NCBI GenBank assembly: GCA_021785655.1
Contig: JAJYET010000005.1
Coordinates: forward strand, 1 to 64,000
Length of the DNA stretch: 64,000 bases
Source: a bacterium
GTDB taxonomy: Bacteria; Chloroflexota; Dormibacteria; Aeolococcales; Bog-877
Direction of reading: 5' to 3'
Shown: positions 43,815 through 64,000 of the stretch, piece after piece
Layout: every line of letters starts with the position of its first letter
Numbering within the stretch: the stretch's first letter is position 1
The notes under the pieces: generated by a model
Databases searched by the model: none
Seen by the model: the letters and a program-made list of their open reading frames with translations, nothing else
What the model was told of the DNA's origin: nothing
Made by a program: the position numbers and the translations under genes

Positions 43815-43910
43815 GGGAGTGCATGGGTCCAGGTGGGCCCCTCGATCTTCAAAATCGATGGGGGGCGCCTCAGGCGTCCCCGGAGGGATCGTTCCCCTCG
43901 CCTCCCGCCA
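43815..43910 (+). tRNA. selC: Selenocysteine-type tRNA (UCA anticodon), possibly non-canonical or degenerate
   Basis: D-arm GGGTCC-AGGT-GGGCCC (6-bp stem, 4-nt loop), anticodon arm TCGAT-CTTCAAA-ATCGA (anticodon TCA), long G/C variable arm, T-stem GAGGG/CCCTC, GCCTCCC-G-CCA 3' end. Acceptor stem only 5 bp (GGGAG/CTCCC) and atypical T-loop ATCGTTC. Confidence 0.6.
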
Positions 43911-43970
43911 CTTCAAATCGCCTGGATTCTGGGCGTCCCCGGCTTCGCGTAGGCCGCGATTGACGGCGGA

Positions 43971-43992
43971 GTGTAGCAGCGGTGTAGCAACG
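43971..43992. repeat. Tandem direct repeat GTGTAGCA(G/A)CG x2
   Basis: GTGTAGCAGCG GTGTAGCAACG, between the tRNA-like sequence and the integrase; candidate arm-type integrase sites. Confidence 0.6.
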
Positions 43993-43995
43993 CGC

Positions 43996-45126
43996 TCAGG
44001 AGGTCGGATTCCCGGGCCGCGTTCGGAGCACCGCATCCAGAGCTTCAGCGGCTGCCTCGTGCATGCCCGAGGTGACGTGGGAGTAGGTGTCGAGCGTGAC
44101 GGCGACCGTGGCGTGGCCCAGCATGTCCGCCGCCACCTTGGGGTGGACCCCCTGCTCCAACAGGAGCGTCGCCGCAGTGTGCCGGAGATCGTGGAATCGG
44201 ACACGGAGAAGGCCCGCTCGCTCCAAGAGCCCCGTGAACTCGATCCGGACATCGTGGGCGTCCACCACGCCGCCCACCCGGGTCGCAAACACGAGGTCGA
44301 GTTCTCTCCACTCGGACCCAGCCCGGAGACGCTCAGCAAGTTGAGCGGTACGGTGCCTACGGAGAGCGTCAACAGCGCTGGCCCCGAGGTGTACCTGGCG
44401 GCGTGAGCGGGCGGTCTTCGGCTCGGCGATCTTCAGTCCCTCCTGCGGGTGCCGCTGGAGTGTCCCCGTGACGGCCACGACAGCACGGTCGAGGTTCACG
44501 TCCCGCCAATGGAGGGCTAGGAGCTCCCCCTGTCGCATTCCGGTCGCAAGGGCGAGCACGTACAGCGCCTCCCGGCGATGGCCCCTGACGGAGCCGAGGA
44601 AGGTGCGCACTTGGGCCGCGTCAAGGACGCGGACTTCCGTGCGGGGTGCCCCTGGCGCGTCCACGAGAGCCGCCGGCGACCGAGTGATAATCCGCCACCG
44701 CTCCGCCTGCCCCAGAGCGCGATGGAGGACCATGTGGACGCACCGAACGCTCCTGGGCGACAGCCCCCGCGTGGCTGCCGCCGCATAGCACCGCTGCAGG
44801 TCCTGGGGGCCGAGTCGCGCCAGCGGCAGGCGGCCCAGCGAGGGCACGAGGTGGAGCCGGACGATTTCTTCATACCGTTGCCACGTCCGCGGACGGAGCG
44901 TCGGCTTGGCGGCCTCCAGCCACTGTCCGAGGAAGGAGTCTGTCCGCAGCCGCATCCCGGCTCCTGATCTGTCCACTCCCTCGGCACGGACCGCTTCCGC
45001 CAGCCTCTGGGCAGCCTCCCCACGGCTCTTCGCGTACCACGTCTGCCGGCGGCCAGTCGGCCAGGTGACGGTAGCCACCCACCGTCCATCTGAAGCGCGC
45101 CGGAAGATCGACCCCTCGCCGTTGCC
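43996..45126 (-). CDS. Tyrosine recombinase/phage-type integrase
   Basis: ATGMRQGELLALHW; HDLRHTAATLLLEQGVHPKVAADMLGHATVAVTLDTYSHV (R..HxxR..H..Y). Start estimated. Confidence 0.93.
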   Translation of the reverse strand, partial: GNGEGSIFRRASDGRWVATVTWPTGRRQTWYAKSRGEAAQRLAEAVRAEGVDRSGAGMRLRTDSFLGQWLEAAKPTLRPRTWQRYEEIVRLHLVPSLGRLPLARLGPQDLQRCYAAAATRGLSPRSVRCVHMVLHRALGQAERWRIITRSPAALVDAPGAPRTEVRVLDAAQVRTFLGSVRGHRREALYVLALATGMRQGELLALHWRDVNLDRAVVAVTGTLQRHPQEGLKIAEPKTARSRRQVHLGASAVDALRRHRTAQLAERLRAGSEWRELDLVFATRVGGVVDAHDVRIEFTGLLERAGLLRVRFHDLRHTAATLLLEQGVHPKVAADMLGHATVAVTLDTYSHVTSGMHEAAAEALDAVLRTRPGNPTS

Positions 45127-45134
45127 GCGTCGGC

Positions 45135-45641
45135 TCACCTCAGGCCGAGCTGGTGCCCGACGTGCGTCCGGATGTAGATCTGGCGGCCAGCGGGAACCCC
45201 CAACGCGTCCCAACGCTCTTCCCACCCGGCCTGCGAGGGCAGGTCTTGGGTGAGGTGCCAGATGATCCCACGATGGATCAACTCCCTAGTAGACCAGGCT
45301 TCCCCTTGATAGAAGCCGATTAGGCCTCCTGCTCGGGGCCACTGCGTGGTCTCCCACGGGAGCTGGCGCGGAGGTGTCCCCGAGCAGATCCACCGCCAGT
45401 CCGCCCGAGAGCGGACCCGCTCGTACCTCAGCTCGTGGGCCCAGATTCGACCCAGGGCGCGGAGCTCGGCTCTGTGCGGTGAGGGCAGCTGGTGGCTCCA
45501 AACCGACGGGGGCAGGAACCGCACGACGGCCCGCGTCAGCACCGCCATTCGACGCGAACGGGCCGCGCGCCACCACGGATCCGCACTGAAGGGCTCCTCA
45601 GCGCGCAGGGAGCGGCGAGTGCGGTACGGTGTGCCGGTCAT
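45135..45641 (-). CDS. Hypothetical protein upstream of integrase
   Basis: ORF; possible excisionase-equivalent position but no recognisable HTH. Confidence 0.45.
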   Translation of the reverse strand: MTGTPYRTRRSLRAEEPFSADPWWRAARSRRMAVLTRAVVRFLPPSVWSHQLPSPHRAELRALGRIWAHELRYERVRSRADWRWICSGTPPRQLPWETTQWPRAGGLIGFYQGEAWSTRELIHRGIIWHLTQDLPSQAGWEERWDALGVPAGRQIYIRTHVGHQLGLR

Positions 45642-45813
45642 GGAGCTGGACCTCTGTGGCCGGGCGGCGGGCCTCCCCGGGGTCGCGCCGCCCCTATTCC
45701 TCACTTTGAGTGTACGCCTACCCGAAGTTAGGTGACCCTCTGTGGCAGCATGTGACATCGCCTGACCGGACCTTGCACTTTCCCGGCCCCAGGCCGAGGG
45801 GTACCTTCATCTC

Positions 45814-46578
45814 GTGCCCTCTCCCGTCCCCGGCGATCCAACCCGCCTCCTGGTCGCCGGCGACACCCACGGCAACCACATGCACTGGAAGCACGCCCTG
45901 CTCCCAGCTGCGCGGGAGCACCGGGTGGACGGCATCGTCCAGCTCGGGGACTTCGGGTACTGGCCGCTGACCGGCGAAGGCCTGAACTACCTCGCCTGGC
46001 TCAGCGCCGAACTCGACGACGACGATCTGAGGACCGTGTTCGTGGACGGGAACCACGAGGACCACAAGGCATTGCGGGATCTCCCAACCCGCCCCGACGG
46101 CTTCGTGGAGGTCACGGACCGCATCCCCTGGGCTCCACGAGGCCACAGGTGGACCTGGCAGGGCGTCCGCTTCCTCGCCCTCGGCGGGGCCTTCTCCATC
46201 GCCCGGCAGTACCGGAAGCTCGACTCCGGCAGGTGGGGATGGTTCAAGGAGGAGGTGATCACGGCCGAGGAAGCCCAGCGGGCCATCGCGGGCGGGCCGG
46301 CCGACGTGCTCCTCGCCCACGACGCTCCGGCCGGGGCGCTGCCCATGGTCGCTGGCGGGCGGTACGACCCCTACACCCTCCAGAGCGCCCGTCACGTTCA
46401 AGAGGCGGCCGCGGCCACGAAGCCGAAGCTCTTGCTCCACGGCCACTGGCACAAGTTCCAGCACGTCCGGCTCTCCGGGCAGGAGACGGAGGTGATCGGG
46501 CTTTCCTACGACGGCGCTCGGAAGAGCTGGCTGGTCCTCAACCTGCCGGGGCTGGAGGTCACGCACGAGCCTGACTGA
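45814..46578 (+). CDS. Metallophosphoesterase
   Basis: VAGDTHGN, LGDFGYW, VDGNHED, HGHWHK. Confidence 0.88.
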   Translation: MPSPVPGDPTRLLVAGDTHGNHMHWKHALLPAAREHRVDGIVQLGDFGYWPLTGEGLNYLAWLSAELDDDDLRTVFVDGNHEDHKALRDLPTRPDGFVEVTDRIPWAPRGHRWTWQGVRFLALGGAFSIARQYRKLDSGRWGWFKEEVITAEEAQRAIAGGPADVLLAHDAPAGALPMVAGGRYDPYTLQSARHVQEAAAATKPKLLLHGHWHKFQHVRLSGQETEVIGLSYDGARKSWLVLNLPGLEVTHEPD

Positions 46579-46598
46579 ATTCGGGGTATGCTCTCCCC

Positions 46599-47372
46599 AT
46601 GACCGTCGATCTCGACGCCCTGCTCGCGGCGCTGAAGTCGGACCCAGTGGCGCGGGACGCCATCCGGCGGGAGGTGCTGACCGAGGACCTTCTGGCTCTT
46701 CCCGGCCTGATGGAGAGAATGGCGGTGCGGACCGACGCTCGCTTCGCGGAGCTGGGAGGCGCACTGTCGCAGCTCACCGAGCGGGTGGACCACCTGACCG
46801 AGCGGGTAGACCAGCTTGCGAGCCGAATGGACCACCTGACCGAGCTGGTAGACCAGCTTGCGGGTCAGATGGCCGCGTTGGTGGCTCAAGTGGGGACCCT
46901 GGCCAAAGCACAGCAGCGGATGGGTGGCGAGGTGAGCCGTCTCGTGGGAGCCGAATACGAGGCGTGGGCGCTGCGCACGGCCCGGCCGGTCGCTCGGGCT
47001 CTCGGAGCGCCTCCGGCGCAGGTCCATCCCATCTCGGCGAGCGCGCTGGAGGCACTGCTAACTGCGGCAGAGGATGCTGGCGGGCTTGAACCCGATGCCG
47101 CCGACGATCTGGCCCAGGCGAACGGCATCTTCGTCTGGGAGCCAGGCGAGGCACGGCCCCCCGTCTACGCGGTGGTGGAGGTGTCGGTCACGGCCAAGGG
47201 CGGCGATGTGGACAGGGCCGTCGCTCGGGCCAACCTGCTTGCCAAGACGGGCGTCATCTCTCGGGCCGTGGTCCTCAGCGATGCCGTGGACGACGAAGCC
47301 GCCCCTGGGCTGGAGACCCATCACGTGGGATGGCAACGGGTCGCGCCCAGGCGCTCCATGCCGCTGTTCTGA
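46599..47372 (+). CDS. Coiled-coil heptad-repeat protein (DUF3782-like architecture)
   Basis: LTERVDH LTERVDQ LASRMDH LTELVDQ LAGQMAA heptads followed by an alpha/beta C-terminal domain. Confidence 0.6.
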   Translation: MTVDLDALLAALKSDPVARDAIRREVLTEDLLALPGLMERMAVRTDARFAELGGALSQLTERVDHLTERVDQLASRMDHLTELVDQLAGQMAALVAQVGTLAKAQQRMGGEVSRLVGAEYEAWALRTARPVARALGAPPAQVHPISASALEALLTAAEDAGGLEPDAADDLAQANGIFVWEPGEARPPVYAVVEVSVTAKGGDVDRAVARANLLAKTGVISRAVVLSDAVDDEAAPGLETHHVGWQRVAPRRSMPLF

Positions 47373-47394
47373 CCTCTCCCCTGTCGCGACCGCT

Positions 47395-47490
47395 TCCCCA
47401 CCCTGCCCGGCCAGGAGACCGAGGTGATCGGGCTCTCCTACGAGGGGGCCCGCAAGAGCTGGATGGTGCTCGATCTGCGGGGGAGAAGCG
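47395..47490 (+). pseudogene. Second metallophosphoesterase, C-terminal remnant only
   Basis: Reads LPGQETEVIGLSYEGARKSWMVLDLRG, near-identical to LSGQETEVIGLSYDGARKSWLVLNLPG of the 45814-46578 gene. Confidence 0.75.
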
Positions 47491-47587
47491 GTGCCGCAGA
47501 TGTGACGGCCCGCCGCTGGTAAGGGACTTCAGCCAAAGGTGAAGGCGGTCGCGGGCGCACACCTAGAGAGCGGCGCTATGGTATCGG

Positions 47588-48961
47588 ATGCCAACCCCGC
47601 GCCAGCAGGCGGAGGGCGATAGACTCGCTCGAGTGTGGAGTGTCCGCAAGCTCCTGTCGTCTCTGCCTACGCCGCCGCCAAGTATCCCAAGCTGGCTCGC
47701 GATAGCGCTACTTGCGGGCGCCGCCGCGCCGGCAGTGGCCTTCGGAGTCGGAGGCGTTCCCCACACAGGTCGCGTTGGTCTGGCTGCCGGAGGCCTGTCA
47801 AGTCTGGCTACGGTGGCCACTAAGCTCATGTCCGGCCAGCCGCCCTACACGCCCGGCTTCCACGGCTCTGTTCCCTTCATTTATCCGCCGGGCATGCTCA
47901 TCTTCATACCCGCGCCCTTGTTAGCTGGCCCTGGCCGATATGTCCTGGCCTTTGCTGTAGAGATGCTCATAGTCTTGTTGGTCGGGGTCGCTCTGGTTCG
48001 CGCCTACCACGCCAGCTCCGACCCACGAGCCGACGCGCTCGGATGGTCGCTGCTGGCAGTTCTAGCTGCAGCTGGACCGCTCACCCTATACCGAACCGAT
48101 CCTGTCATCGGACTGCTGCTGGTCGCAGCGGCGATAGCCTGGCGTCGAGGGAGTGTCGGCACCAGCTTCCTACTCGTTCTTGCAGCCGGGTTGATCAAGG
48201 AGTACGCCTGGGTCGAGGTGGTGCCCCTGCTTGGCTGGCAGGTTGGCGCCACGGTCAGGGGTCGTCCCAGCAGTCTTCGACTCGCCAGCGCCACCGTACG
48301 ACCCGTGTTGCTGGCTGGCGTCCCCATCCTGGTGATATTGGCAGCGGTCGAAGTCTGGTCACATGGCGGGCTCGTAGCATCCCAGCTTCACAACCTTGAC
48401 CGCGGAGTCGAGATTGAGAGTTTGCCGGCCGCTGTCGCCATGCTCCTCGCTGGTCTAAGAGGAGTGATCGTAGTCAGAGGTGCACTCGGCTCCATGCAGA
48501 TAGCTGGGTCGGGCCTACATCTTCGCCTCATATCCACCGCCTTCGCTGCGGCTGGCGTGGGTCTACTCGCGCTGATCGCAATTCGGTCGGCTAGGCCGCC
48601 TATTCTTCCCGGTACTGCCTTCTCCTTCGCCATGGGACTGGCCCTGCTGGTCACCCCGGTGCTGTCTCCCCAGTATCTAGACGCACTCACCCCATGCCTG
48701 TGCCTAGCCGCCCTGGAAGCGCGGCCTTCTATCCGCGCGTATTTACTCTGGGGAACGCTGGGCTTGGCACTGCTTACACAGCTCGAGTTCCCGTATCTCT
48801 GGACCTCTGTGCTCAGCCTCTCCGCGCACGGTCTGGTCGCATTGGAGTTGCGCAACCTGGCCCTCGTGGCCATCGTCGCCACGATCGGAACGGTATGGAT
48901 GAGATCGGGAGCGCCAGGTGCCCGAACCGCTGTTCTTCCCACAACTTCCAATTCCCACTGA
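47588..48961 (+). CDS. Polytopic membrane protein, GT87/DUF2029-like glycosyltransferase
   Basis: Multiple TM segments, GQPPYTPGFHGSVPFIYPPGMLIFIPAPL, GLIKEYAWVEVVPLL. Confidence 0.6.
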   Translation: MPTPRQQAEGDRLARVWSVRKLLSSLPTPPPSIPSWLAIALLAGAAAPAVAFGVGGVPHTGRVGLAAGGLSSLATVATKLMSGQPPYTPGFHGSVPFIYPPGMLIFIPAPLLAGPGRYVLAFAVEMLIVLLVGVALVRAYHASSDPRADALGWSLLAVLAAAGPLTLYRTDPVIGLLLVAAAIAWRRGSVGTSFLLVLAAGLIKEYAWVEVVPLLGWQVGATVRGRPSSLRLASATVRPVLLAGVPILVILAAVEVWSHGGLVASQLHNLDRGVEIESLPAAVAMLLAGLRGVIVVRGALGSMQIAGSGLHLRLISTAFAAAGVGLLALIAIRSARPPILPGTAFSFAMGLALLVTPVLSPQYLDALTPCLCLAALEARPSIRAYLLWGTLGLALLTQLEFPYLWTSVLSLSAHGLVALELRNLALVAIVATIGTVWMRSGAPGARTAVLPTTSNSH

Positions 48962-49249
48962 ACTCACCTCGCTCCAAGGCCAAAGCACCCAGGTCGATGC
49001 GTCGCCTTCCCCGGAGGACCTCCTGCACTCGGCCAAGACCAAGCTCCGTCGCATCGTCCCCCAAGGCACCATCGAGATCGCGGCTGCGCACCCAAACCGG
49101 TAACCCGCAGCCCCACCAGTAGACGGTAGCTTCAGACTTGACCGCGCTCAGGCAGCGTGGTACCGTGCTGGGCGGTCCCGCGGGCACGCCGCTCCCGGGC
49201 CAGTATCGGACCAAGCAGGTAACGCCTGACTCCATCAGGGAGTGTTGGT

Positions 49250-50308
49250 ATGCCCCACAGTAAGCCGAGGCCATTATGGCGTATATTCCAGTACGGCTCC
49301 CACACACGGTCCGGCACGCCGCTCCCGCTTGGTCCGCTCGGCACCCCACACAGATGGCGCCTGTTGGCGGTCGTGGCCACGGCCTTCGTCATACCCTTGG
49401 CCTACGGAGTGTCTGTGGTCCAAGCGGCAGATAGCGCTGGCTACTATTACGGTACTGACAGCAACAGTACCGCCTACCCCTCCGGGTCACCTTACCAGGA
49501 GCCGGGAAACGTTGGTGGGAACTACGGTGGGTATGTTGGTGAGATTGGTACATGGCAACAGACCGCGGGCTGCTCAAACTACACCAACTACTTCAACACC
49601 ACCGACGCGTCAGCGGCCAATAGCAACTACAACTCGGGTATCGGGGTTGGGGTTGGCGGCTATTTCTTTATGGGCGGACCCGGTGCCGATCCGAACTACA
49701 ACGGGACGGCGAGCGAGGCCACGGCCTGGGGTGCAGCGCAGGCCAAGACCGCCGTCAGCAACTGGGATGCCAGATCTGGCTACACGAGCACATCAAATGG
49801 CTACCTACCCTATGAAGTGGTGTGGATGGACATTGAGGGAAGTGCCTCCGCTTCGAACGGATGGGATGGTCGTCTGACCAACTGTGGCGCCTCTGACAGC
49901 GAGACGGGCATGAACTATGTACTCGATCGCGATACTTTCAACGGCTTCTGGAACTACATCGTGAACAACACCGCCCATCTCAAGCCAGGGGCGTACTCAT
50001 CGGGGAGTTTCTGGAACTACACGTTCACCCCGACCGACTCCCCCTGCAGCGACTATCCAACCGAGTGCGAGATCCTCAACACGTGGGAGTGGACCTATGA
50101 GAACGACAGCGGGTCAGTCCTCTATGGACCACAGGGATGGACACAGACCGTACAAGCCACAGGCACCCAGGTGAGTGCCTCCTTCTTCGGAGGCCAGAGC
50201 CGCGGCGGACCCTACAATCTCGGTTGGCAATGGTGTATTCCGTCGGCATGTGGCGGCAGCGACGACTACGATCAGCTCGACCAAAGCAATATGGCGTCTG
50301 GCTGGTGA
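49250..50308 (+). CDS. Secreted protein, possibly glycoside-hydrolase-like TIM barrel
   Basis: Signal peptide; YEVVWMDIEG and Trp/Tyr-rich barrel-like sequence. Confidence 0.45.
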   Translation: MPHSKPRPLWRIFQYGSHTRSGTPLPLGPLGTPHRWRLLAVVATAFVIPLAYGVSVVQAADSAGYYYGTDSNSTAYPSGSPYQEPGNVGGNYGGYVGEIGTWQQTAGCSNYTNYFNTTDASAANSNYNSGIGVGVGGYFFMGGPGADPNYNGTASEATAWGAAQAKTAVSNWDARSGYTSTSNGYLPYEVVWMDIEGSASASNGWDGRLTNCGASDSETGMNYVLDRDTFNGFWNYIVNNTAHLKPGAYSSGSFWNYTFTPTDSPCSDYPTECEILNTWEWTYENDSGSVLYGPQGWTQTVQATGTQVSASFFGGQSRGGPYNLGWQWCIPSACGGSDDYDQLDQSNMASGW

Positions 50309-50324
50309 GGTGACTACATTGATC

Positions 50325-51029
50325 ATGAGCAGGTTTCTGCGGACTGCCGGCGGGCTGGTAGTTGTGATAGGGATGTGTATGGCCGCGTGGACCGTCGTTG
50401 GCCTCTCAGCACGTGCCCACAGCCGTGGGCGCATAGGTGGGGTAGTGCAAGTCGCGGCGGCAAGCAGCCCGTCCGCGCCTCCCCAACAATCGCCGACAGC
50501 TGGATCAGGTGGCAGTTCTTCTGCAGTCTGCTCGGGCAGCCAATTGTCGATTCGAGAAGATCCAGGTCCTACGGCCATGGGGTTCGCCTACGAAGTCTTC
50601 GTCTTCACGAACGGCGGTTCATCTGCTTGCACCTTGGTGGGGTACCCGACGGTCACGGAGTCGGGTCCGGCCGCTAATAGCCACTCATCCCTTGCCCCTG
50701 GTGCTTCCTCAGCGATGGGCGCCGCCACTGCGCCCCACTACGCGAGGAATGGGCAGTTCGATCCAGCCTCTATCGTGACACTCGCTGCTGGCGGGACGGC
50801 GTCGTTTTTTATGGACATGCAGCCAGCCATCATGAACGGCGCGTGTTGGGGGCCAAAGGGAGGTACCCCAAGCGACGTGCTCTACGTCACGCCGCCTGGT
50901 TCTGCAATAGCGCTGGCGATCGCTGGGGCTGGTAGCTTTTGTGGTGACCTGGTCCCGCCTGTTTCTCCGGTGTTCCCAGGAGTCGTCTTCACCAATGAGC
51001 AGCCCCCTGTCTCGGCGGTGGGCAATTGA
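50325..51029 (+). CDS. Secreted DUF4232-like protein
   Basis: Signal peptide; AYEVFVFTNGGSSACTLVGYPTVTESG... Confidence 0.65.
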   Translation: MSRFLRTAGGLVVVIGMCMAAWTVVGLSARAHSRGRIGGVVQVAAASSPSAPPQQSPTAGSGGSSSAVCSGSQLSIREDPGPTAMGFAYEVFVFTNGGSSACTLVGYPTVTESGPAANSHSSLAPGASSAMGAATAPHYARNGQFDPASIVTLAAGGTASFFMDMQPAIMNGACWGPKGGTPSDVLYVTPPGSAIALAIAGAGSFCGDLVPPVSPVFPGVVFTNEQPPVSAVGN

Positions 51030-51217
51030 AGGGGCGCGCAGAGCGGGGCCACTGAGGTCGATGTGGCCCGGAAGCAGGCGGGTTGGGCGGTCTCCGCAGC
51101 ACTCGGCGGAGGGCAGAGAGGGCAGTTCGATACGACTGAGATGGTGGTGCGTGCTTCGGTGACCTCCTGCCCGGTGATCGACACAGGTAGGGAGCGGAGC
51201 GCACTTCGCGGCGCGTC

Positions 51218-52435
51218 TTGGCAATAGGCGGGCGGCATAGGGCTCCGTGGGCGCCTTGTATCGCCGTCGCATGTCTCGCTCTTGCTGGTTGCGCAAGTGC
51301 TCGGGGACCAAGCCCTGCGGTCAAGCCATCAGTAACAGGGCACTTGGCCTCTGTGAGCACGACTAGGAGTGGCAGTACGGCATGGGCGGTGGGCGCGACG
51401 GCATTGACCAGCGATGCCCTGCCTAGGACTCTGATCCTTAGGGAGAGTGGTGATGCATGGGTGCGAGTGATCAGCCCAGACGTGATGGGCGCGCAGCATA
51501 ACAGATCCGGGGCCGACAACGAACTCACAGGCGTCAGCGCAGTGTCCAAGCAGGACGCTTGGGCAGTCGGGTACTACACACCCTACGCAGAGCGAGCTCC
51601 GAGTACTGAGGGGGAGAGTTGGCCTTTGATCCTGCACTGGAACGGCTCAGTCTGGACGCGGGTGCGGGCCAATGTGTTCACTGCTGGGTGGGTGACGCTG
51701 AGTGCAGTTAGTGCCGACTCCCCCAATGACGTCTGGGTAGTCGGAGCATATCGCGGAGCATATCCTCGTGTATTCCACTGGAACGGTGATGCTTGGCAGT
51801 CCGTATCGTTGCAGGGTGCGCTGGGGGCAGGTGGCTTGTACGGCACGAGCATTTCCGCCGTTCAGGCGCTCGGCCCTGCAAACGAATGGATGGTGGGCTC
51901 GTCAGGAGGAGCGTCGCCGCTCGTATTGCACTCTAGTGGCTCTGCATGGACCTCTGTTCCAGCTCCGAGAAGCGGTGCCGAAGGCGTAGGGAGCTCGCTC
52001 ACCTCGGTGAGCATGACGCAATCAGGTGTCGGGTGGGCCAGCGGTGTCGTAGGGTCAAACACTGGGGTCCTTGACTACTGGAACGGCAAGGCATGGACTT
52101 CTGACAGTGCGTCGGCGGTCTTGGCCTCCGGGTCGCTCAGATCTGTCTCAGTGTTTTCATCCTCGTCATCCTCGGCTCCGGAAGGCTGGGCGGTTGGAGG
52201 GGTCAACAGCCGTGGCGCCGCCGTGCTGGAGCTGACCGGATCGGGTTGGACTGCGGTGGCAACTCCCAGTGTGCGAGGTGGCGATCTGTCCTTGAATGCG
52301 GTCGTGAGCATACCTAATGGTGGGGCGGAGGTCGTTGGTTCGTACGTCAAGTCGGACGCCTCGCCAATCGCACCCAGCCCACTCGTGCTCTCTTGGAAGT
52401 CTGGCAAATGGGAGCAGGAACCCATTGTCGCGTGA
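51218..52435 (+). CDS. Secreted repeat protein, probable beta-propeller
   Basis: About six repeats of DxWAVGxxx...LxLHWNGxxWTxV. Confidence 0.65.
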   Translation: MAIGGRHRAPWAPCIAVACLALAGCASARGPSPAVKPSVTGHLASVSTTRSGSTAWAVGATALTSDALPRTLILRESGDAWVRVISPDVMGAQHNRSGADNELTGVSAVSKQDAWAVGYYTPYAERAPSTEGESWPLILHWNGSVWTRVRANVFTAGWVTLSAVSADSPNDVWVVGAYRGAYPRVFHWNGDAWQSVSLQGALGAGGLYGTSISAVQALGPANEWMVGSSGGASPLVLHSSGSAWTSVPAPRSGAEGVGSSLTSVSMTQSGVGWASGVVGSNTGVLDYWNGKAWTSDSASAVLASGSLRSVSVFSSSSSSAPEGWAVGGVNSRGAAVLELTGSGWTAVATPSVRGGDLSLNAVVSIPNGGAEVVGSYVKSDASPIAPSPLVLSWKSGKWEQEPIVA

Positions 52436-52746: not shown

Positions 52747-54138
52747 TCACCGCTCCCCCACCACCCGCACCGGGGGTCGATCCCGCAGTCGAGGCGCGGG
52801 CAGCCTGAGCCCCGACACCGCAGACACACCGCCTTCGCTCTCGGGCTCGGAGACCATCCGGGCAGGTCCGAACCCCACTGCCTGCCGCTGCACCTCGCCC
52901 TCGGGCCGCGTGCCCAGCCGCTCCGCCACGAACTCCGGGGTGATCCACACCCGCCGGGCCGGCGCGCCCTGGGCGATGGCCCGGTGAAGCAGCGACTCCA
53001 TGCGGGTCTCCACCGACCGCAGCCCGGCCTCACCCGAGGCGGCGTACCCAGTGACCACCAGGTCCAGCGCCTCCGCGCTCAACGGCACCACCCGCCGGGC
53101 GAGCCCGTAAGCGTCGAGCAGCCGGGGCCACAGGTGCGAGCCCGCCACCTCCACCCGCTCGGCCTTCGTCAGACCCTCCACCTCCACCACCTCGCAGCGG
53201 TCCAGCAGGGGCGCGGGAATCGGATCAAGGGAGTTGGCCGTCGCCACGAAGCTCATCCCCGCCATCGGGTAGGGGACGCCCACGTACCTGTCGGTCCAGG
53301 TGGTCGAGCCCAGCAGCTCCAGCATCCAGGCCGTGGGCGAGGCCCCGTGCCGGGACCACCCACCGCCCAGCTTGTCGATCTCGTCGAGGACCAGCAGCAG
53401 CCGGGACGTGCCCGCCCGCCGGATCGCCCGGATGATCGCCCCCGGCTCCGCCGAGCTCCACACCCGGTCGGCACCGGCGAGGTACACCTCGTCCATCGAG
53501 GCCATAGGGACTGACACCACCTCGCACGGGCGACCCAGGGCGTCCGCCATCGCACGCGCCAGGGTGGTCTTGCCAGTCCCCGGCGGGCCGACCAGGAGCA
53601 GGGGTCGGATGCGATGCTCGCCGCCGCCCTGCAGCTCCAGGTGCGCCTGCGCCGCCACGCGGTCGGCCAGGATGGCCTTCACCCCGGCGTGCCCGCCGTG
53701 GGCCGCGTCGAGCGCCCGCTGGGCCGCCAGGGCGGCAGGCTTGCGCTCTGCGGGGGGCGCGGTCCAGGGAAGCTCCGCCACCAGCCGCAGCCAGTTCCGC
53801 TGGTGCTCCGACCCGTCCTCGTCGGCCATCACTCGCCCAGCCACCGACTCCACCTCGGACCTCGCCGCTTCGGAGGCCTCCGCCACCGCCGACCGGGCCG
53901 CGGCCACCAGGTCGCCATCGAGGTTGGGTGAGCCCGGCCGGGCCCGCTCGGCCGCCGTCTGTCTCGCCGCCTCAATCGCGGCCTCGGCCTTCTCCTGCGC
54001 CTCGTCCTCTCTCGCCTCCGCCTCGGCCCGCACCGCCTCGGCCCGCAGCCGGACCGGGCAGTCCTCACGGGGGACCGTCGGATGCACCAGGCCACAGCTC
54101 GAGCACGGGCGCAGAGGATCGAAGTCAAAGCGAGACAC
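52747..54138 (-). CDS. Stand-alone Lon-type AAA+ ATPase without a visible S16 protease domain
   Basis: HAGVKAILADRVAAQAHL..PLLLVGPPGTGKTTLARAMADALGRPCEVVSVPMASMDEVYLAGADRVWSSAEPGAIIRAI; LLLVLDEIDKL; N-term CSSCG...C. Confidence 0.8.
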   Translation of the reverse strand: MSRFDFDPLRPCSSCGLVHPTVPREDCPVRLRAEAVRAEAEAREDEAQEKAEAAIEAARQTAAERARPGSPNLDGDLVAAARSAVAEASEAARSEVESVAGRVMADEDGSEHQRNWLRLVAELPWTAPPAERKPAALAAQRALDAAHGGHAGVKAILADRVAAQAHLELQGGGEHRIRPLLLVGPPGTGKTTLARAMADALGRPCEVVSVPMASMDEVYLAGADRVWSSAEPGAIIRAIRRAGTSRLLLVLDEIDKLGGGWSRHGASPTAWMLELLGSTTWTDRYVGVPYPMAGMSFVATANSLDPIPAPLLDRCEVVEVEGLTKAERVEVAGSHLWPRLLDAYGLARRVVPLSAEALDLVVTGYAASGEAGLRSVETRMESLLHRAIAQGAPARRVWITPEFVAERLGTRPEGEVQRQAVGFGPARMVSEPESEGGVSAVSGLRLPAPRLRDRPPVRVVGER

Positions 54139-55735: not shown

Positions 55736-56224
55736 CTAAATGCCCCGCCGCGTCCGCGCCCTGATCTCCCCAGCCACGGCCTCGCGCAACTCCGGCCATC
55801 CAGCCCCTCCGGCCCGGAGGCGGTCCAGTGCCAGGCGGAGCACGTCCCCCTCGCTCACCCTGACCCCCTCTCGCATGGCGTCGGCGACGAATCCGTTGAG
55901 CCAGGACTCCTGATCCGCGCGGAGCTGCACCTTGCCCCGCCGAGGCGCATACGCTCCGGCTGTCTTGGTGGGCATCTGGGCCACTGTCCCCTGGTCCCTA
56001 TGTCCCCGGCGGGACCTGGGCACATCGGCCTCCGGGGGCACGGGGTCGTGGGCACGTGAGGTCGTGGGCACGGCGTCCACCGCGCTCACTGCGTCACTCG
56101 CACCTGAAGCTGGGCTCTGCCCCTCCCATGTCCGCGGATGCAGCGACGGAGTGACGGGCACCTTCGGCGGGCGCTGGGCTCGGCCCCCGACCTTCGCCAT
56201 CATCGAGTCCAGGACATCAGGCAT
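55736..56224 (-). CDS. Putative ParB-like/RHH partner of ParA
   Basis: Overlaps the ParA stop; C-term KVQLRADQESWLNGFVADAMREGVRVSEGDVLRLALDRLRAGG RHH-like. Confidence 0.6.
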   Translation of the reverse strand: MPDVLDSMMAKVGGRAQRPPKVPVTPSLHPRTWEGQSPASGASDAVSAVDAVPTTSRAHDPVPPEADVPRSRRGHRDQGTVAQMPTKTAGAYAPRRGKVQLRADQESWLNGFVADAMREGVRVSEGDVLRLALDRLRAGGAGWPELREAVAGEIRARTRRGI

Positions 56225-56993
56225 GGGCCACCTCCAGGGAGTTCGCAGAGGACACCGACGGGACCAGCCCCACCTTCTGACGGACCACATCGGCCACGAT
56301 GCGGAACTCATCGGCCGCCGTGGTGACTTGGCTCCCCGGGGAGTGCGTCAGCACCAGGGCTGCCCGCCGGCCGCGGTGTGGCAGCCAGGGATGGTCGCCG
56401 ATGGGAGGCGCGACCTCTAGCTTGTAGGTCTGTGTGAGGTTCCAGAGCTGGCGGAGCAGCCGCCGCTCCCGGACCCGACCGGCGAAGCGGTTGGGGACCA
56501 GCAGGAGGGGGAAGTCGGCGCGCATCCGCAGGAAGCTGGCGAGCGCCGCCAGCTCCATCCCTCCGAGAACCATCGGCACCACGACACACTGCGCGGCGGC
56601 GATGGCCCCGTCCGAGAGGGCCCCGGTCCCCGGGTGCGTGTCAACGACCACTGGCCGCCCCCACTCCCTCGACCAAGCGGTCAGGCGGTCGATCACCCGG
56701 CCGGGCTCGATCCCTGTGAGTTCCGCCAGGCGCGTATCCGACGGGACCAGGCCCGGTCGGCCATCCGCACTCAGGAAGCCGGGGGCGGGGCCGAAACCGA
56801 GAACCAACCCAGTCAAGAGGGCGCTGCGGACCCGCCTCTCGGGAGAGTCCCCCCAGCGCCCGGTCGCTCCACCTCCATCCCAGTCGAGATCGACCAGGAC
56901 CGCGCCCAGGGCACCCGCCAGCTCGAAGGCGAGGGTGGTCTTGCCGATCCCGCCCTTCGGCGATGCGACGGTGACGATGGGCCATGTCCTCAT
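56217..56993 (-). CDS. parA: ParA/MinD family partition ATPase
   Basis: VASPKGGIGKTTLAFELAGALGAVLVDLDWDGG; VVVDTHPGTG. Confidence 0.85.
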   Translation of the reverse strand: MRTWPIVTVASPKGGIGKTTLAFELAGALGAVLVDLDWDGGGATGRWGDSPERRVRSALLTGLVLGFGPAPGFLSADGRPGLVPSDTRLAELTGIEPGRVIDRLTAWSREWGRPVVVDTHPGTGALSDGAIAAAQCVVVPMVLGGMELAALASFLRMRADFPLLLVPNRFAGRVRERRLLRQLWNLTQTYKLEVAPPIGDHPWLPHRGRRAALVLTHSPGSQVTTAADEFRIVADVVRQKVGLVPSVSSANSLEVAHA

Positions 56994-57178: not shown

Positions 57179-57249
57179 GCCGCAGCAGACGCTGGCCACT
57201 TGGCCCGGGAGCGGCTCAGCCGAGCGGCTTCCGCTCGACCCCCACAGGC

Positions 57250-57867
57250 TCAGGAGCCGGGGACAGCCTCCGCCTCGCCGCTCGCCAGCGCAGCCTTCAG
57301 CGCGGCGACCATGGCTTCGATGGCTTCGGTCGGATCAGCCGGATGCGGCGGCTCCCCCTCCCCCTCCAGCCACTCGGCGACCATGCCGCCCACAGCGGCG
57401 TCGAACTGCTCCCGCGACCTGCCACGGCGTGCAAGGTCCAGGTCCAACTCCTCGTCGGTCAGCTCGCGCGCTTGGTCGAGAGTGAACAGCCGGTCTCGCC
57501 CGTGGCCCTCAGCCACCCACCGCTGCACCACCGAGAGAGGCTTGGGTACCTCAGGCACCACGGAGGCCTCCATAGGGACGGGAGGGGCGGGGCGCAGGAG
57601 GGGCGGCTCCACGGCCACAGGGGCGGCCTCCACCTCCACCACAGGGGCCAGGGCCTCCAGCCGCTCGACCAAGCGGAGCACCTCGGCTCGGGTTGCCTCC
57701 AGCACTGCCCGCAAGCTCCCCGCAGCCGTCGCCTCATCGGCCAGCTCATGCTCCAACGCAGCGGAGACCAAGGCAGCCAGGGACACGGAGCGTTGGGCGG
57801 CGGCAGCCGTGGCGCGGGCAGCTAGGCCCCGGTCGATGCGGACGCCGAGTTGCTTCGTGCTCATCAC
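57250..57867 (-). CDS. RHH/CopG-type DNA-binding accessory protein
   Basis: QLGVRIDRGLAARATAAAAQRSVSLAALVSAALEHEL. Confidence 0.65.
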   Translation of the reverse strand: MMSTKQLGVRIDRGLAARATAAAAQRSVSLAALVSAALEHELADEATAAGSLRAVLEATRAEVLRLVERLEALAPVVEVEAAPVAVEPPLLRPAPPVPMEASVVPEVPKPLSVVQRWVAEGHGRDRLFTLDQARELTDEELDLDLARRGRSREQFDAAVGGMVAEWLEGEGEPPHPADPTEAIEAMVAALKAALASGEAEAVPGS

Positions 57868-58331
57868 CAGTCCTCGGGGTGGACCAGCGCGGCGACCTCC
57901 GCGACGATCTCCTCGGACACTTCCACCTCATCGGGCCGCTCGCCCAGCCTCACCCGCACCATCAAGTGCTCGACTATCTCAGTGGCCAGGGACCAGAGTT
58001 CGCTTCGCACCGCCTCCCGTGCGAGACGGCCTGGCAGAGAGGTCAACTCCTCCAGCTTCCGCTCGTGGTCTCGCACCGTGGCGGCCAGTATCGAGACGCG
58101 CTGATCCAGGTTGTCGATCTCATCCAACTTTTTCTGCTCGCGGTAGGTATGTGTCCGGCACACCGAGCAGCGGGCTTCCTCGGCCAGTTCTCGCTCTAGG
58201 GCGCAGGTGATCAACTCTGTTAGCGAGACCGTCCGCTCGGCGGCGATGGCATGGGCGCGGTCAGATAGGTTGCGCTCGACCACGGCGCTCACCGTCACCC
58301 GGTTTGGATCTCCGCTTCGCATATCCCTCAT
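57864..58331 (-). CDS. RHH/CopG-type DNA-binding accessory protein, paralog of the previous gene
   Basis: RVTVSAVVERNLSDRAHAIAAERTVSLTELITCALEREL; 4-bp overlap; divergent from relaxase. Confidence 0.7.
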   Translation of the reverse strand: MRDMRSGDPNRVTVSAVVERNLSDRAHAIAAERTVSLTELITCALERELAEEARCSVCRTHTYREQKKLDEIDNLDQRVSILAATVRDHERKLEELTSLPGRLAREAVRSELWSLATEIVEHLMVRVRLGERPDEVEVSEEIVAEVAALVHPEDW

Positions 58332-58494
58332 GGTAGCACGTGTGGTAGCAGTGCCTTGGCCTTTCGGTCCTCGCGGAGGGGCGGCCTTGTTTGACAGGTG
58401 CCTCTGTCAGCCCTCCGACAGCAGAGCGGTCACACGCTTAGAACGCTTGCATCAAGATGCGGGGCCGCCGCCGAAGTGTGCTACGCTTCGGCTC
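58331..58494. promoter_or_regulatory. Candidate oriT / relaxosome region
   Basis: Direct repeats TGGTAGCA (58331, 58343), IR TGACAG-N6-CTGTCA (58392-58409), hairpin GCCGAAG-TGTGCTACG-CTTCGGC (58470-58492) abutting the relaxase start. Confidence 0.5.
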
Positions 58495-61400
58495 ATGTGG
58501 ACCGTCGCCGTGATCAAGGACCCCGCCTACTACCTCCGCTGCGTGGCCGACCGGGCCACCGCGCAGGAGCTGGGCCTGCGCCGCCTGGCCGAGGCCACCA
58601 TGGTCGCCTACGAGCTGGCGGACGGCACCACGCTGGAGGCGTCCGAGGTCCACGCCCTCCGCCGTCAGGTGAAGGTGGCCGGGCTCCGGCTGGCGGACGG
58701 CCGGGAGGTGGCGCTGGACCTGGTGGAGGTCTTGCGGGACGGTCGGCACGTCGCCGGGTACCGGTTGGCCGACAAGACCGTGGTCGAGAAAGAGGATGCC
58801 CAGCGCGTCACCCTGACCCGCAGGCGGCTGGCGGCCTACCGACTCGCCGACGGCACCACGCTGGCCAAGGGCGAGCTGCGGGCCATCACCGCCGGGGAGA
58901 CGCTGGCGGGGCTCACGGACGCCGAGGGACGGCCGGTCGAGGCGGCCATGGTGGCGATCCGCGACCAGATGAACGGCCGCATCCTCGGGTACTACTCGGA
59001 GCACGGCGAGGCCCCCGGCCAGTGGATCGGCAAGGGAGCGCTGGAGGACCTCGGACTGACAGGGCTGGTCTCGCTGGACGAGAACCGGCAGGCGTACGAG
59101 CGGCTGATGGCCGGGCTCCACCCGGTCACGGGCGAGCGGCTGACCCACGGCCAGCCCGGCGGGGAGCGGGTGTCGGGCTTCGACCACCTGGTCACGGTCC
59201 CCAAGTCGGTGTCCCTGCTCTGGGGCTTGACCACCGACCAGGCGGTCCGGGAGGCCATCGAGGCCGCCCACAAGGAGTCCATCACCGAGGCGCTGGGCTG
59301 GCTGGAGTCGCAAATCTCCGTGGCCCGCCGGGGGCACGCCAGTGGCGGAGAGAACGACAAGCACCCGGACACCATCCACCACGTCCCGACCACCGGAGTG
59401 ATCGGCGTCCGGTTCCAGCACCGGGCGACCCGGCCGGGCGAGGGCGACCCGTGCGGCGACCCGCACCTGCACACCCACGTCACCATCGCCAACCTCGCGC
59501 ATGGGCAGGACGGCCAGTGGAACGCGCTCGACGCCCAGCTGATGTACCCGCACCTGCGGACGGCCTCCTTCGTCGAGCAGGCGGCCTTCCGCCGGCTGGC
59601 CGTCCAGAAGCTCGCGGCCCTCGGGCACCACATCGAGTGGACACAGCCGGTGAACGGCCACGCGGAGATCAAGGGGTTGGAGCGCCGCGACTGGATCGAG
59701 GCCTTCTCCCGCCGCTCCGCCGAGGCCGACGCGGCGCTGGAGCGCAAGGAGCTGATCGAGGAGGTCGGCTCCGGCCCCAGCAAGGCTCGCGACCAGGCGG
59801 GCCACGCGACCCGCCGAGCCAAGGAGACCGGGCTGGCCACCAGCGAGCTTGTCGCCGACTGGCAGGCTCGGGCGGCGGAGATCGGGCTCGGGCCGGGGCA
59901 GGTGGAGGCGGCGCTCCGGCGGCAAGCGACCCCCGAGGCGGAGCCCGAGCTGACCCCCAAGCTGGCGACCCAACTCGCCCAGGACCTCACCGAGCAGCAG
60001 AACGTGTTCGGCCTCGGGGACGCCATCCAGGCGGTCGCGAACGCCGCCCGGCTGGGCATGACCGTTGCGCGGGCCGTGGAGATGGCCAAGGAACTGACCC
60101 ACGGCGCGACGGACCAGATCGTCGCCTTGAAGCAGACGGCGCGCACCGTGATCCGGCGGGACGACGGGCGCGTGGTCAAGGTGCGGCTCAACGACGAGAT
60201 GGCCGAGTGCTTCACCACCAAGGAGGTGATCCGGCTGGAGAGCCAGGTGATCACCATCGCCAAGGAGCGCAGGCTCGCCGGCGTGGGGCTGGCCCGGCCG
60301 GAGGCCCTCGCCGCCGCGCTGGCCGCGCATCCGGAGCTGGGCGAGGATCAGGTGGCGATGGTGACGGGCCTCTGCACCGACGGGGCCGGAGTCGCCATCG
60401 CGCTGTCCCCCGCCGGCCACGGCAAGACGACCGCGCTCAGGCCAGCGGCCCAGGCTTGGCAGGACAGCGGCTTCACCGTGCTCGCGACGGCGCAGATGGC
60501 CGCACGAGCCCACGATCTGGGAGAGGGAGTCGGGCTCGACCCCAAGCGGGCGATGACCATCGCCGCGCTCCGGCAGCGCGTGGAGGGGACGGACGATATG
60601 CCGGTTGGCACCCCGCTTCCTCAGGGCGTCGTCCTACTGGTGGACGAGGTGTCCGTGGTCGATCTGAGGGACCTCGCAGCGCTGGAGTGCCACGTGAGGG
60701 CCGCCGACGGCAAGCTGGTGCTGGTGGGCGATCCGCAGCAGCTCGGCTCCATCGGGCCCGGGGCTCCGCTGGTCGAGCTGCCCCAGGTCGCGCCGACCTA
60801 CGAGCTGGTGGAGAACCGGCGGCAGACGGCGACCGAGCGCGACGCCGACGGCAAGGAGATTCTCGGACCCGATGGGAAGCCGATCTACTGGGAGCGCTCG
60901 GCCATCGAGGGCTTGCGGCGGGGCGCGTGGGGCCTGGCCAATCCTGAGGAATACCAGAGGTGGGCGGCGGAGAAGGCGAGGGGGACGGGTGAGGACGCCC
61001 CGACGGCCAGTGGGTTGATCGGCTTCGCGCTCCAGGACTACGACCGCCACGGCCGCATCGTCTACGCCGAGGGGGAGAGCCGGGCCGCCAAGGCCGACCT
61101 CATAAAGCAGGCGGCTCAGGACTACCTGAGCGCGAAGGACAGCGGGCAGAGCGTCGCCCTGATGGCCCACACCCACAAGGACCGCCTGAGCCTCAACGCC
61201 GTCATCCGGTCGGAGCTCATCCAGCGGGGAGAGGTGGCGGCCGATGGCATGAAGGCCGGCGATCTGGAGGTCGCCGCAGGCGACACCCTGCAGGTGCTCA
61301 AGAACTCCCGCAAGCTCGGGCTCGACAACTCCGACCTGGTGCGCGTCGAGGGGATCGACAAGGAGAAGAAGATCGCCTCGGTCCGGCGTCCCGACGGGGA

Positions 61401-62016
61401 GCTGGTGGAGCTGAACCACGGGTATCTCGCCAAGTACGCCGCCCACGGGTACGCCGAGACGGTGAACAAGGCGCAGGGCACGACGGCCGACGTGGGGCTG
61501 GTGCTGGCCGACAGCTCCAGCCTCAGCTCCCAGTTCGGCCAGGTGGCGCTCACCCGGGGCCGGGAGGACAACCGGATCTACTTCGCCGGACCAAGGCCCG
61601 TGGACCCCGAGCACCACCTTCCTGAGGAACAGGCTCCCTCAGAGGACGACCAGTGGAAGCTCATCTTCGCCGGGCTCACCCGAGACCGGAGCAAGGAGCT
61701 GGCCAGCGAGGTGATCGCCGCCCTCGACCGGGACGACCGGCAGGCCGTGGAGAAGGCGCTGGCCGCCAGCGTCGAGGTCACCAGGGCGGCGGCCCAGGTG
61801 GAGAGAGACCGGCTGGCGGCCCAGGCGGTCAAGGCCGAGGGTGAGGCCCTCGCTCGGCGCGACCTGCAGGCCATCGAGGCGATGCAGGCCGAAGAGGCCG
61901 CCAAGACCTCCGAAGAGAGGGAGGCGGAGCGGAGGAGAGCCGACCACGAGGCCGACGAGCACCGCCAGCAGCACCAGTCGCACGGCATGCAGCGGACACG
62001 GGGGCCGCGACCCTGA
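58495..62016 (+). CDS. MobF (TraA/TrwC-type) conjugative relaxase-helicase with internal repeat insertion
   Basis: N-term DPAYYLRCVA tyrosines, FDHLVTVPKSVSLLWGL, DPHLHTHVTIANL metal His triad; helicase SPAGHGKTTALR, VVLLVDEVSVVD, VNKAQGTTADVGLVL, LTRGREDNRIYF. Confidence 0.93.
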   Translation: MWTVAVIKDPAYYLRCVADRATAQELGLRRLAEATMVAYELADGTTLEASEVHALRRQVKVAGLRLADGREVALDLVEVLRDGRHVAGYRLADKTVVEKEDAQRVTLTRRRLAAYRLADGTTLAKGELRAITAGETLAGLTDAEGRPVEAAMVAIRDQMNGRILGYYSEHGEAPGQWIGKGALEDLGLTGLVSLDENRQAYERLMAGLHPVTGERLTHGQPGGERVSGFDHLVTVPKSVSLLWGLTTDQAVREAIEAAHKESITEALGWLESQISVARRGHASGGENDKHPDTIHHVPTTGVIGVRFQHRATRPGEGDPCGDPHLHTHVTIANLAHGQDGQWNALDAQLMYPHLRTASFVEQAAFRRLAVQKLAALGHHIEWTQPVNGHAEIKGLERRDWIEAFSRRSAEADAALERKELIEEVGSGPSKARDQAGHATRRAKETGLATSELVADWQARAAEIGLGPGQVEAALRRQATPEAEPELTPKLATQLAQDLTEQQNVFGLGDAIQAVANAARLGMTVARAVEMAKELTHGATDQIVALKQTARTVIRRDDGRVVKVRLNDEMAECFTTKEVIRLESQVITIAKERRLAGVGLARPEALAAALAAHPELGEDQVAMVTGLCTDGAGVAIALSPAGHGKTTALRPAAQAWQDSGFTVLATAQMAARAHDLGEGVGLDPKRAMTIAALRQRVEGTDDMPVGTPLPQGVVLLVDEVSVVDLRDLAALECHVRAADGKLVLVGDPQQLGSIGPGAPLVELPQVAPTYELVENRRQTATERDADGKEILGPDGKPIYWERSAIEGLRRGAWGLANPEEYQRWAAEKARGTGEDAPTASGLIGFALQDYDRHGRIVYAEGESRAAKADLIKQAAQDYLSAKDSGQSVALMAHTHKDRLSLNAVIRSELIQRGEVAADGMKAGDLEVAAGDTLQVLKNSRKLGLDNSDLVRVEGIDKEKKIASVRRPDGELVELNHGYLAKYAAHGYAETVNKAQGTTADVGLVLADSSSLSSQFGQVALTRGREDNRIYFAGPRPVDPEHHLPEEQAPSEDDQWKLIFAGLTRDRSKELASEVIAALDRDDRQAVEKALAASVEVTRAAAQVERDRLAAQAVKAEGEALARRDLQAIEAMQAEEAAKTSEEREAERRRADHEADEHRQQHQSHGMQRTRGPRP

Positions 62017-62017
62017 G

Positions 62018-62404
62018 ATGGGCTCGCTATTCGCGCCGCTAGCCATCCTGGCCCTTGGGGCAGTCGCGGCCCTGGCCGGGGCTCGGAGGCCCTCGGGCCG
62101 CCGGCCACTGGTTCCGGCCCTCCCACGCAGGGACCTCGACCGCGAGCAGGCGGGCGATCCAGCCACTCCCGCGTTCGAGCTGGCCGTGCTGAGCCATCAC
62201 CCGGACCCCTTGGTGCGCCTCCAGGTGGCGCTGAATCCCAGCACCGACGGCTGGACCCGCGAGCGCCTCGACGCCGACGACGAGCTGGAAGTCCTCCGCT
62301 CCGGCTACGGGGAAGGGCGCGGGGCACGGGCCGCCAGCTCGGGCACCTGGCCGTGGTCGCTGCCCGGCGACCTCGACGCTTGGCGGCTGTCTTGGGCGGC
62401 CTGA
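62018..62404 (+). CDS. Small hypothetical protein with N-terminal TM
   Basis: ORF immediately after relaxase; LAVLSHHPDPLVRLQVALNPSTD. Confidence 0.5.
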   Translation: MGSLFAPLAILALGAVAALAGARRPSGRRPLVPALPRRDLDREQAGDPATPAFELAVLSHHPDPLVRLQVALNPSTDGWTRERLDADDELEVLRSGYGEGRGARAASSGTWPWSLPGDLDAWRLSWAA

Positions 62405-62467
62405 CGTGGGCAATTTCCCGGCTCGCCCACGGGTGAGACGCTCCAGCGAAGGCCAAGGAGGTGCCAG

Positions 62468-63169
62468 ATGAACAGCAGCCATCGCGGAGCGGTGATCGCA
62501 CTGGCGATGCTGGCGGGCACGCTCGGTCTCAGCTCGCTCCTCGCGGTGTCCGGCTCGGCGGCCCCCGCCGGGCCCAGTCGCCCTGCCGCCGTGGCCAGCA
62601 CCCAGGTCCTGGGCAGCCTGCCCCGCCCGAGCCAGGTGAGGCCCGCGGACGTGGCCGTCAAGAGCACCCCTACCCCGTCGCCCTCGGCCGACCCCACCGA
62701 GCAGCCCAGCACAGCTGCTGCGCCCCGGCCTACGACCGTGGCCGCTGCGCCGCCGTCGCGGCCAGCTCCTACTCATACGCCGTGGCCGACTCCCCGGCCG
62801 GTGGCCACCCCCAGGCCAACTCCCGTCCCCACGCCCCCAGGACCCATCGACAGCGGCCCCCTGCCCGCTCTGACTTGGACCGTGGTGAACCAGGGCGGCG
62901 CGCCCGTTGTGTCCACCGGCAGCTCGGTCAGCGCCTCCTACACCTATCCGCCGGGCACCTACACCACCGGGATCGCCGTCTCCACAAGCTGGGGCAACTA
63001 CTCCCTGTGCGCGACGGAGACCGAGATCGACACGAGCGGGTCCACGACCTTCACGTCCACCTACGAGACGTGCGGCGTGGACCAGTCCTGGCAGGGCCTG
63101 GGAAGTGGTGGCGGCTCGCCCGACACCGCCGAGTCGATCACCGTCACCCTGTCCTGGTACCAGCCGTAG
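62468..63169 (+). CDS. Secreted protein with Pro/Thr-rich linker and C-terminal beta domain
   Basis: RBS (AAGGAGG), signal peptide, PTP-rich stalk, C-terminal beta-rich domain with two Cys. Confidence 0.7.
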   Translation: MNSSHRGAVIALAMLAGTLGLSSLLAVSGSAAPAGPSRPAAVASTQVLGSLPRPSQVRPADVAVKSTPTPSPSADPTEQPSTAAAPRPTTVAAAPPSRPAPTHTPWPTPRPVATPRPTPVPTPPGPIDSGPLPALTWTVVNQGGAPVVSTGSSVSASYTYPPGTYTTGIAVSTSWGNYSLCATETEIDTSGSTTFTSTYETCGVDQSWQGLGSGGGSPDTAESITVTLSWYQP

Positions 63170-63511
63170 GGGCCGGCGCGAACACAGGTTAGTCCCGCGA
63201 CGCCTGTGTCAATCCACTTCCCCGTACGTCGCAAGTCGATCCCGGTCTGCCGGTCGAGCCTCCTTGGCCACCGGGCTCCTGCCGTTCGTCCATGTTACTC
63301 ATCGGTAACCAGGGACCCCATTCCACGCAACTGCGCGTACACTCGCAGGTCACGAAGACGCGATCGAGCACGGGAGGAACAAAAGGAACATTTCGTCACC
63401 GGTCACTCTTCGCCGAAGGCGGGCTAGACAGCAGCTCGCCCCTCCGCTTGGGGCGTAGGGTGGCCGTGCGTTGATACGAACCGTTCAAGTACACACAAAC
63501 GGGGGGGCACT

Positions 63512-64000
63512 ATGCGATCGTTTACTACGCGGCTCGCGCTTGTCGGCGCATTGGTATGCGGGCTGGCAACAGCCTTCTCCGGGACCGTCCAAGCGGCCAG
63601 CGCGACGACGACTGCATCGCCATCAGCCCCGACGCTCACAGCTTCACAAGTCGCTGCGGTCGCAGGATACAAGGCTAGTCATGACACAGAAGCGGCCCAG
63701 ATAGCCGCCCTTGGTGCGCAGTACGCGGCTCTGAATGCCACGAAGACGCAAGCCTTTCAAGACGGCACCGTCACAAGACCTGGAGCCCCACGGGGTTCTC
63801 GCGGCAGTGGCATTAGTCCAAACATTCTCTGCTGCGGCAATCCTAATCCGCCGAGCGAAGCGGTTGTTCCCTACCTGGTCCAATATGGACAGGACACTGG
63901 TTGGTTCTGCGGCCCGGCCACGGTCGCCGAGATGTCTGCGACCGTACCTGGACCGAGCGCGTACAACTTGAACCAGTACGCTGTCGCGAGCTACATGGGG
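63512..64000 (+). CDS. Secreted C39-like cysteine peptidase domain protein, runs off right edge
   Basis: Translation from ATG 63512 (not in ORF track, no stop): signal peptide ... VVPYLVQYGQDTGWFCGPATVAEMSATVPGPSAYNLNQYAVASYMG. Confidence 0.65.
   Translation, partial: MRSFTTRLALVGALVCGLATAFSGTVQAASATTTASPSAPTLTASQVAAVAGYKASHDTEAAQIAALGAQYAALNATKTQAFQDGTVTRPGAPRGSRGSGISPNILCCGNPNPPSEAVVPYLVQYGQDTGWFCGPATVAEMSATVPGPSAYNLNQYAVASYMG

Follow-up and report, generated by a model that had tools for sequence, protein, structure and literature searches.

A relaxase-bearing integrative element at the tRNA-Sec gene of a Dormibacteria genome

Results

The tRNA-Sec gene and its surroundings

The window, which here means the whole 64,000-nt stretch of DNA that was analysed, comprises bases 1–64000 of the 84278-bp contig C40, and contig numbering continues window numbering to the right. 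It holds a selC gene encoding tRNA-Sec, a tyrosine integrase gene pointing toward it, and downstream genes that include a partition ATPase and a relaxase. The features within the window are as follows.

42294–43718, minus strand: histidine kinase-like gene to the left of selC (labelled a kinase by reading its letters), a chromosomal anchor, 88–91% identical beside selC in G002, G003 and G005
43815–43910, plus strand: selC, tRNA-Sec(TCA) with encoded CCA (ARAGORN, Rfam); its 5′ part is chromosomal and its 3′ part falls to the element's side of the junction
43847–64000: part of the element inside the window; the element runs on as far as contig position 78673, where the attR repeat (78674–78736) closes it
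43847–43909, plus strand: attL repeat, 63/63 identical to contig 78674–78736, its start coinciding with that of the anticodon loop (CTTCAAA)
43996–45225, minus strand: tyrosine integrase (PF00589, E=2.7e-25; PF14659; PHROG integrase), convergent with selC and ending 87 bp away
45814–46578, plus strand: calcineurin-like phosphoesterase (PF00149), a conserved backbone gene, about 78–80% identity in sister elements
52747–54087, minus strand: AAA ATPase with Lon-like ATPase domain (PF00004, partial lon match), a backbone gene
55736–56311, minus strand: small protein beside ParA, no Pfam match, 37–59% in sister elements; RHH by eye only
56217–56993, minus strand: ParA-like partition ATPase (CbiA, 7e-6; AAA_31, 1.6e-5), 48–51% in sister elements
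57250–58298, minus strand: two small proteins adjoining the relaxase (gene calls, no Pfam match)
58495–62016, plus strand: MobF relaxase-helicase of TrwC type (NCBIfam MobF, 172 bits against a cut-off of 100; TrwC, 7e-62; PF08751, PF13604)

A preliminary description of this DNA had pointed to a tRNA-Sec-like sequence ending in CCA at 43910, and the covariance model agrees, with RF01852 matching 43815–43906 at 56.6 bits, over the gathering score of 47. ARAGORN likewise calls a tRNA-Sec with anticodon TCA at 43814–43909, and the CCA is encoded at 43908–43910, the 3′ end of the gene. This selC is the single tRNA-Sec gene of the draft genome (2.30 Mb, 67 contigs); the other tRNA-Sec match over the cut-off, on contig C12, is a tRNA-Ser(TGA) and was rejected. 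The sixth position of the selC acceptor stem is irregular, and because the same irregularity is found in congeners, we do not read it as decay of the gene. The host, judged from its coding sequence, uses selenocysteine in a formate dehydrogenase: a molybdopterin-oxidoreductase frame on contig C21 has an in-frame TGA (U) in QARIUHSATVPGLGASFGRGG, and the QARIUHSATV stretch is the formate dehydrogenase active-site motif.

Boundaries of the element and the interrupted sel locus

Beyond the window, at contig 78674–78736, the 3′ part of selC is repeated exactly over 63 bp (attR). The repeat begins where the selC anticodon loop (CTTCAAA) begins and ends with the CC of CCA, and a genome-wide search finds two copies only, attL and attR. 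Since all 63 bases agree and the match is in register with a tRNA gene, we regard a chance match as excluded. The displaced selC fragment at the far end has the same orientation as selC, as in tRNA-integrated islands. The element so bounded is about 34.8 kb long, with 14.7 kb of it past the window end, and its G+C content is 68.6%, compared with 70.3% in the left flank and 72.6% in the right flank. The proposal that a tRNA 3′ end serves as attB of an integrative element, which called for a direct repeat at the right end, is thus borne out by the covariance-model match, the exact repeat and empty sites in relatives. The span first assigned to the element, 43815–64000, does contain it but is incomplete, the true right limit being contig position 78673.

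Just 3′ of the CCA at occupied sites we also see the motif CCA[ACG]TTCAAA (43907–43930 here), which resembles the loop core CTTCAAA and is perhaps a candidate integrase binding site. The motif is also present where G005 has an empty site, possibly as a relic of an earlier element.

Directly to the right of attR lie three selenocysteine genes, each over its NCBIfam cut-off.

Contig 79028–80326 as called (true start probably 78947): selA
Contig 80323–82233: selB
Contig 82224–83246: selD

When the left and right flanks of the element are joined, they are collinear with the empty sites of G002 and G003. The comparison with an uninterrupted relative that the preliminary description had proposed has a clear outcome: in three genomes of the same genus (G002, G003 and G005) the orthologue of 42294–43718, selC and selA adjoin one another, selC lying immediately upstream of selA, so that a selC-selA-selB-selD locus was broken up by the insertion. 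An uninterrupted selC-selA junction is also found in eight genomes of another family of the same taxonomic order, and the junction is therefore ancestral. By its sequence, selC has been kept intact even though the insertion parted it from selA-selB-selD. Since the genome is a draft in 67 contigs, one could suppose that a plasmid or phage contig had been joined to the selC locus during assembly or binning, but such an artefact would require two independent misjoins at exactly the same bases. The two outer flanks correspond to the empty locus of congeners, independent genomes have the same architecture with other elements, and we hold this explanation to be very improbable.

Gene content and mobility

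The 14.7 kb beyond the window carry the rest of the element.

Contig 67329–68813: VirD4/TraG coupling protein (profile match)
Contig 69828–70298: HNH-like protein
Contig 70397–72034: polytopic protein, VirB6/TrbL-like by topology only (weak)
Contig 75344–76735: DnaB helicase (a second DnaB copy lies on contig C51)
Contig 76732–78144: probable Rep (weak RPA match, somewhat better in a homologue)
Contig 78141–78371: HTH/excisionase-like protein

Several labels that had been assigned by reading the letters hold up against profiles, namely the convergent integrase beside the tRNA (PF00589 and PF14659) and the MobF relaxase, which is well over its cut-off. In the pair labelled ParA/RHH, the ParA half stands, but the RHH half has no Pfam match at E≤0.001. 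The RHH labels of the two accessory proteins beside the relaxase were likewise made by eye only and have no Pfam match at the same threshold; these two are putative relaxosome/RHH accessory proteins. The first ~155 residues of the relaxase, which contain imperfect repeats, precede its YY motif; this N-terminal extension is kept in G009 and G017, and sister elements at tRNA-Ser align only from residue ~157–161. The regions 47588–52435 and 62468–64000 encode secreted- or membrane-looking proteins with weak coding scores and without clear family matches. No solved structure matched the Rep-like pair, and PADLOC returned weak ATPase-type matches only and no defence system.

The preliminary description had seen no type IV secretion or coupling protein and reasoned that the element must extend to the right or be mobilizable only. 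Both of these alternatives apply. A coupling protein does exist, past the window end, but VirB4 was not found: no protein in the genome is over the VirB4 cut-off, contig C40 has not even a weak match, and the best VirB4-like matches, on contig C60, are far below the cut-off. Searching the remaining large ORFs of the element against Pfam at E≤5 also gave nothing of VirB4 type. The element thus has the integrase and relaxase of an integrative mobilizable element (IME), and a complete mating-pair apparatus was not found; of the hallmarks of an integrative conjugative element (ICE), the relaxase and coupling protein are there, and a VirB4-type ATPase and mating channel were not found. Because VirB4 was not found, we consider the element mobilizable rather than self-transmissible. 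Neither an oriT nor an excised circle nor transfer was seen. A self-transmissible ICE that encodes a highly diverged mating apparatus of its own would fit the relaxase and the closeness of the coupling protein to a polytopic membrane protein, and it could be accommodated in the ~10 kb of the element (46.6–52.7 and 62.5–66.7 kb) that encode secreted-looking or unassigned proteins, but the searches above, which turned up no VirB4-sized or VirB4-type protein in the element, make it improbable.

Two weak VirB4-like ATPases lie ~13 kb apart on C60 of this genome, G000 (24415–25281 and 37707–38561), and similar pairs are present in G001, G005 and G012, perhaps as a conserved chromosomal secretion-like locus.

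The integrase and the metallophosphoesterase both have phage relatives, which a prophage or phage satellite could explain, but no capsid, terminase, portal or tail gene was found among the element genes profiled, and MobF and VirD4 are present, leaving a phage origin highly unlikely. Actinomycete AICEs are built in the style of integrative plasmids, with Int, an Xis-like protein, Rep and a tRNA site, and move double-stranded DNA by an FtsK-like protein. The element shares the first four of these and has MobF and VirD4 in place of the last, since its only matches of this kind are of VirD4/TraG type and no FtsK/TraB-like double-stranded DNA translocase was found.

It may also be asked whether the element integrated long ago and is now an immobile remnant. 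It is present as a single copy in the genome and no circular form was seen, as would be expected of a remnant, but the two att copies still match at all 63 positions and the integrase, relaxase, DnaB and coupling protein are all full-length open frames, and we therefore think immobility unlikely. From the boundaries and gene content together, we conclude that this is a 34.8-kb integrative element at the sole selC, most likely an integrative mobilizable element or integrative plasmid, with a probability of about 0.88.

Relatives of the element and its integrase

Backbone genes of the element are common to elements at other sites. The G017 element on contig C104 shares Rep, the HNH protein, the coupling protein, DnaB, MobF, the Lon-like ATPase, ParA and the phosphoesterase, and elements at tRNA-Ser(TGA) in G005 (C38) and G012 (C55) have MobF, the Lon-like ATPase and ParA in common with the element of this window. 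The closest integrases are found at selC in G009 (58%), at tRNA-Cys in G001 (56%) and in three cases at tRNA-Ser(TGA) (52–53%), all of them 83–89 bp from their tRNA. For the sister elements at tRNA-Ser and tRNA-Cys, no tRNA fragment repeat was found within the sequence examined. Named relatives of the integrase are MAGs of Candidatus Dormiibacterota, the phylum to which the class Candidatus Dormibacteria belongs, or of unclassified bacteria. Elsewhere in the phylum, a further relative has a tmRNA gene as its neighbour, at a distance of 38 bp (L096:2510–2876).

Occupancy of selC in the family

Fourteen family genomes have a locatable selC, and an integrase lies beside it in seven (G000, G001, G004, G009, G012, G015 and G017), which, in a small sample of draft genomes, is a count and not a rate. 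The site is empty in five (G002, G003, G005, G007 and G013; G007 was scored by eye, from its selA leader), and in the remaining two the locus is rearranged without an integrase. In these two we see, by eye, transposase- and transporter-like ORFs (G008) and thiamine-gene-like ORFs (G014) in the gap between selC and selA, and neither was counted as occupied.

Where both ends were seen (G000, G004, G012 and G017), the first base of the repeat is always the same position of the anticodon loop. The congener G004 has a different, 7-kb element in the same place with the same repeat boundary, and in G017 the repeat and the integrase match each occur twice, an occupancy that reads as a tandem array. 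Integrases at selC occupy at least three separate positions in the tree, several deep forks of which are weak: that of this window with G009, those of G012 and G015, and those of G055 and G224. These observations indicate that selC is a recurrent docking site used by several integrase lineages in the family.

Among the genes of the 7-kb G004 element are one for an AbiEi-type antitoxin and one for a NUDIX-methyltransferase fusion (L048:5252–6061 and 6419–7489), and the fusion is also present in the G017 array. Three genomes of another family of the class (G050, G056 and G058) have real repeats of the selC 3′ part with no integrase of this group between them; in G050 the genes between the repeats look chromosomal, and the repeats are possibly remnants.

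Variation within selC

In the family alignment of selC, 3 of the first 39 positions are variable, compared with 24 of the other 56 columns. The displaced 3′ part at the far end of the G012 element has the variable arm of the selC of its congener G008, and the working selC of G012 has a different one, which implies that the element supplied the working arm. Because the variable arm is also fast-evolving in its own right, we take this case as suggestive and not as proof. A broader reading, which we offer tentatively and at less than even odds, is that selC has been repeatedly rewritten by elements, combining a host 5′ half with element-borne 3′ halves, and that this also parted selC from selABD.

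Discussion

The architecture of the locus is seen directly in the sequence, and the recombination behind it may be reconstructed as follows. The tyrosine integrase would have recombined attP with the anticodon loop of the sole selC, so that an element-borne copy of the selC 3′ part rebuilt an intact tRNA-Sec gene at the left end and the original 3′ part was displaced 34.8 kb rightward, to just before selA-selB-selD. Judging from gene content, excision would proceed via the integrase and the HTH/Xis-like protein, the circle would be maintained by the Rep-like protein, DnaB and ParA, and transfer would use the MobF relaxase and VirD4 coupling protein with a mating apparatus from another element.

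selC is a known site of enterobacterial pathogenicity islands, with which this element has insertion in selC in common. Integration at the anticodon loop with restoration of the tRNA gene is standard (PMC4383910; PMC8371274), and the tDNA islands of Islander (PMC4383910) have the same integrase beside the tRNA, restored 3′ part, displaced far-end fragment and anticodon-loop crossover subsite. The host lineage and target differ, the target here being selC within the selC-selA-selB-selD locus of Dormibacteria. Phage PhiE067 occupies selC of Burkholderia thailandensis with a 19-bp att (PMC7266877), at a site that also lies within a Sec-gene region, and a Paracoccus yeei prophage sits in tRNA-Sec with 15-nt repeats (PMC6209633). 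Those are phages with repeats of 15–19 bp, whereas the element described here bears a relaxase and a 63-bp repeat starting in the anticodon loop.

According to a 2017 review, no known canonical IME encodes a MobF relaxase (PMC5704250); the Dormibacteria element has MobF and, in addition, VirD4, DnaB, a Rep-like protein and ParA. Non-canonical IMEs combine an integrase, a relaxase and a partial type IV secretion system without a complete mating system, as here, and among the categories of that review the element is closest to these. The kind of element and the use of selC as a site elsewhere are thus already known. What is new is the hosts, the recurrence at selC, the split Sec locus and the MobF/VirD4/Rep backbone. 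Among the papers searched, none names both Dormibacterota and selenocysteine.

These findings document a selC integration hotspot in an uncultured lineage far from the enterobacteria, in Sec-using bacteria, and a family of MobF elements in Dormibacteria with integrases that have switched among tRNA-Sec, tRNA-Ser(UGA) and tRNA-Cys. If selC is indeed rewritten by elements, each integration would swap the variable arm, T arm and 3′ acceptor strand of the tRNA, and the exchange may persist after loss of the element. Because empty, singly occupied and tandemly occupied sites are all present, it can be tested directly how integration affects a single-copy, special-purpose tRNA.
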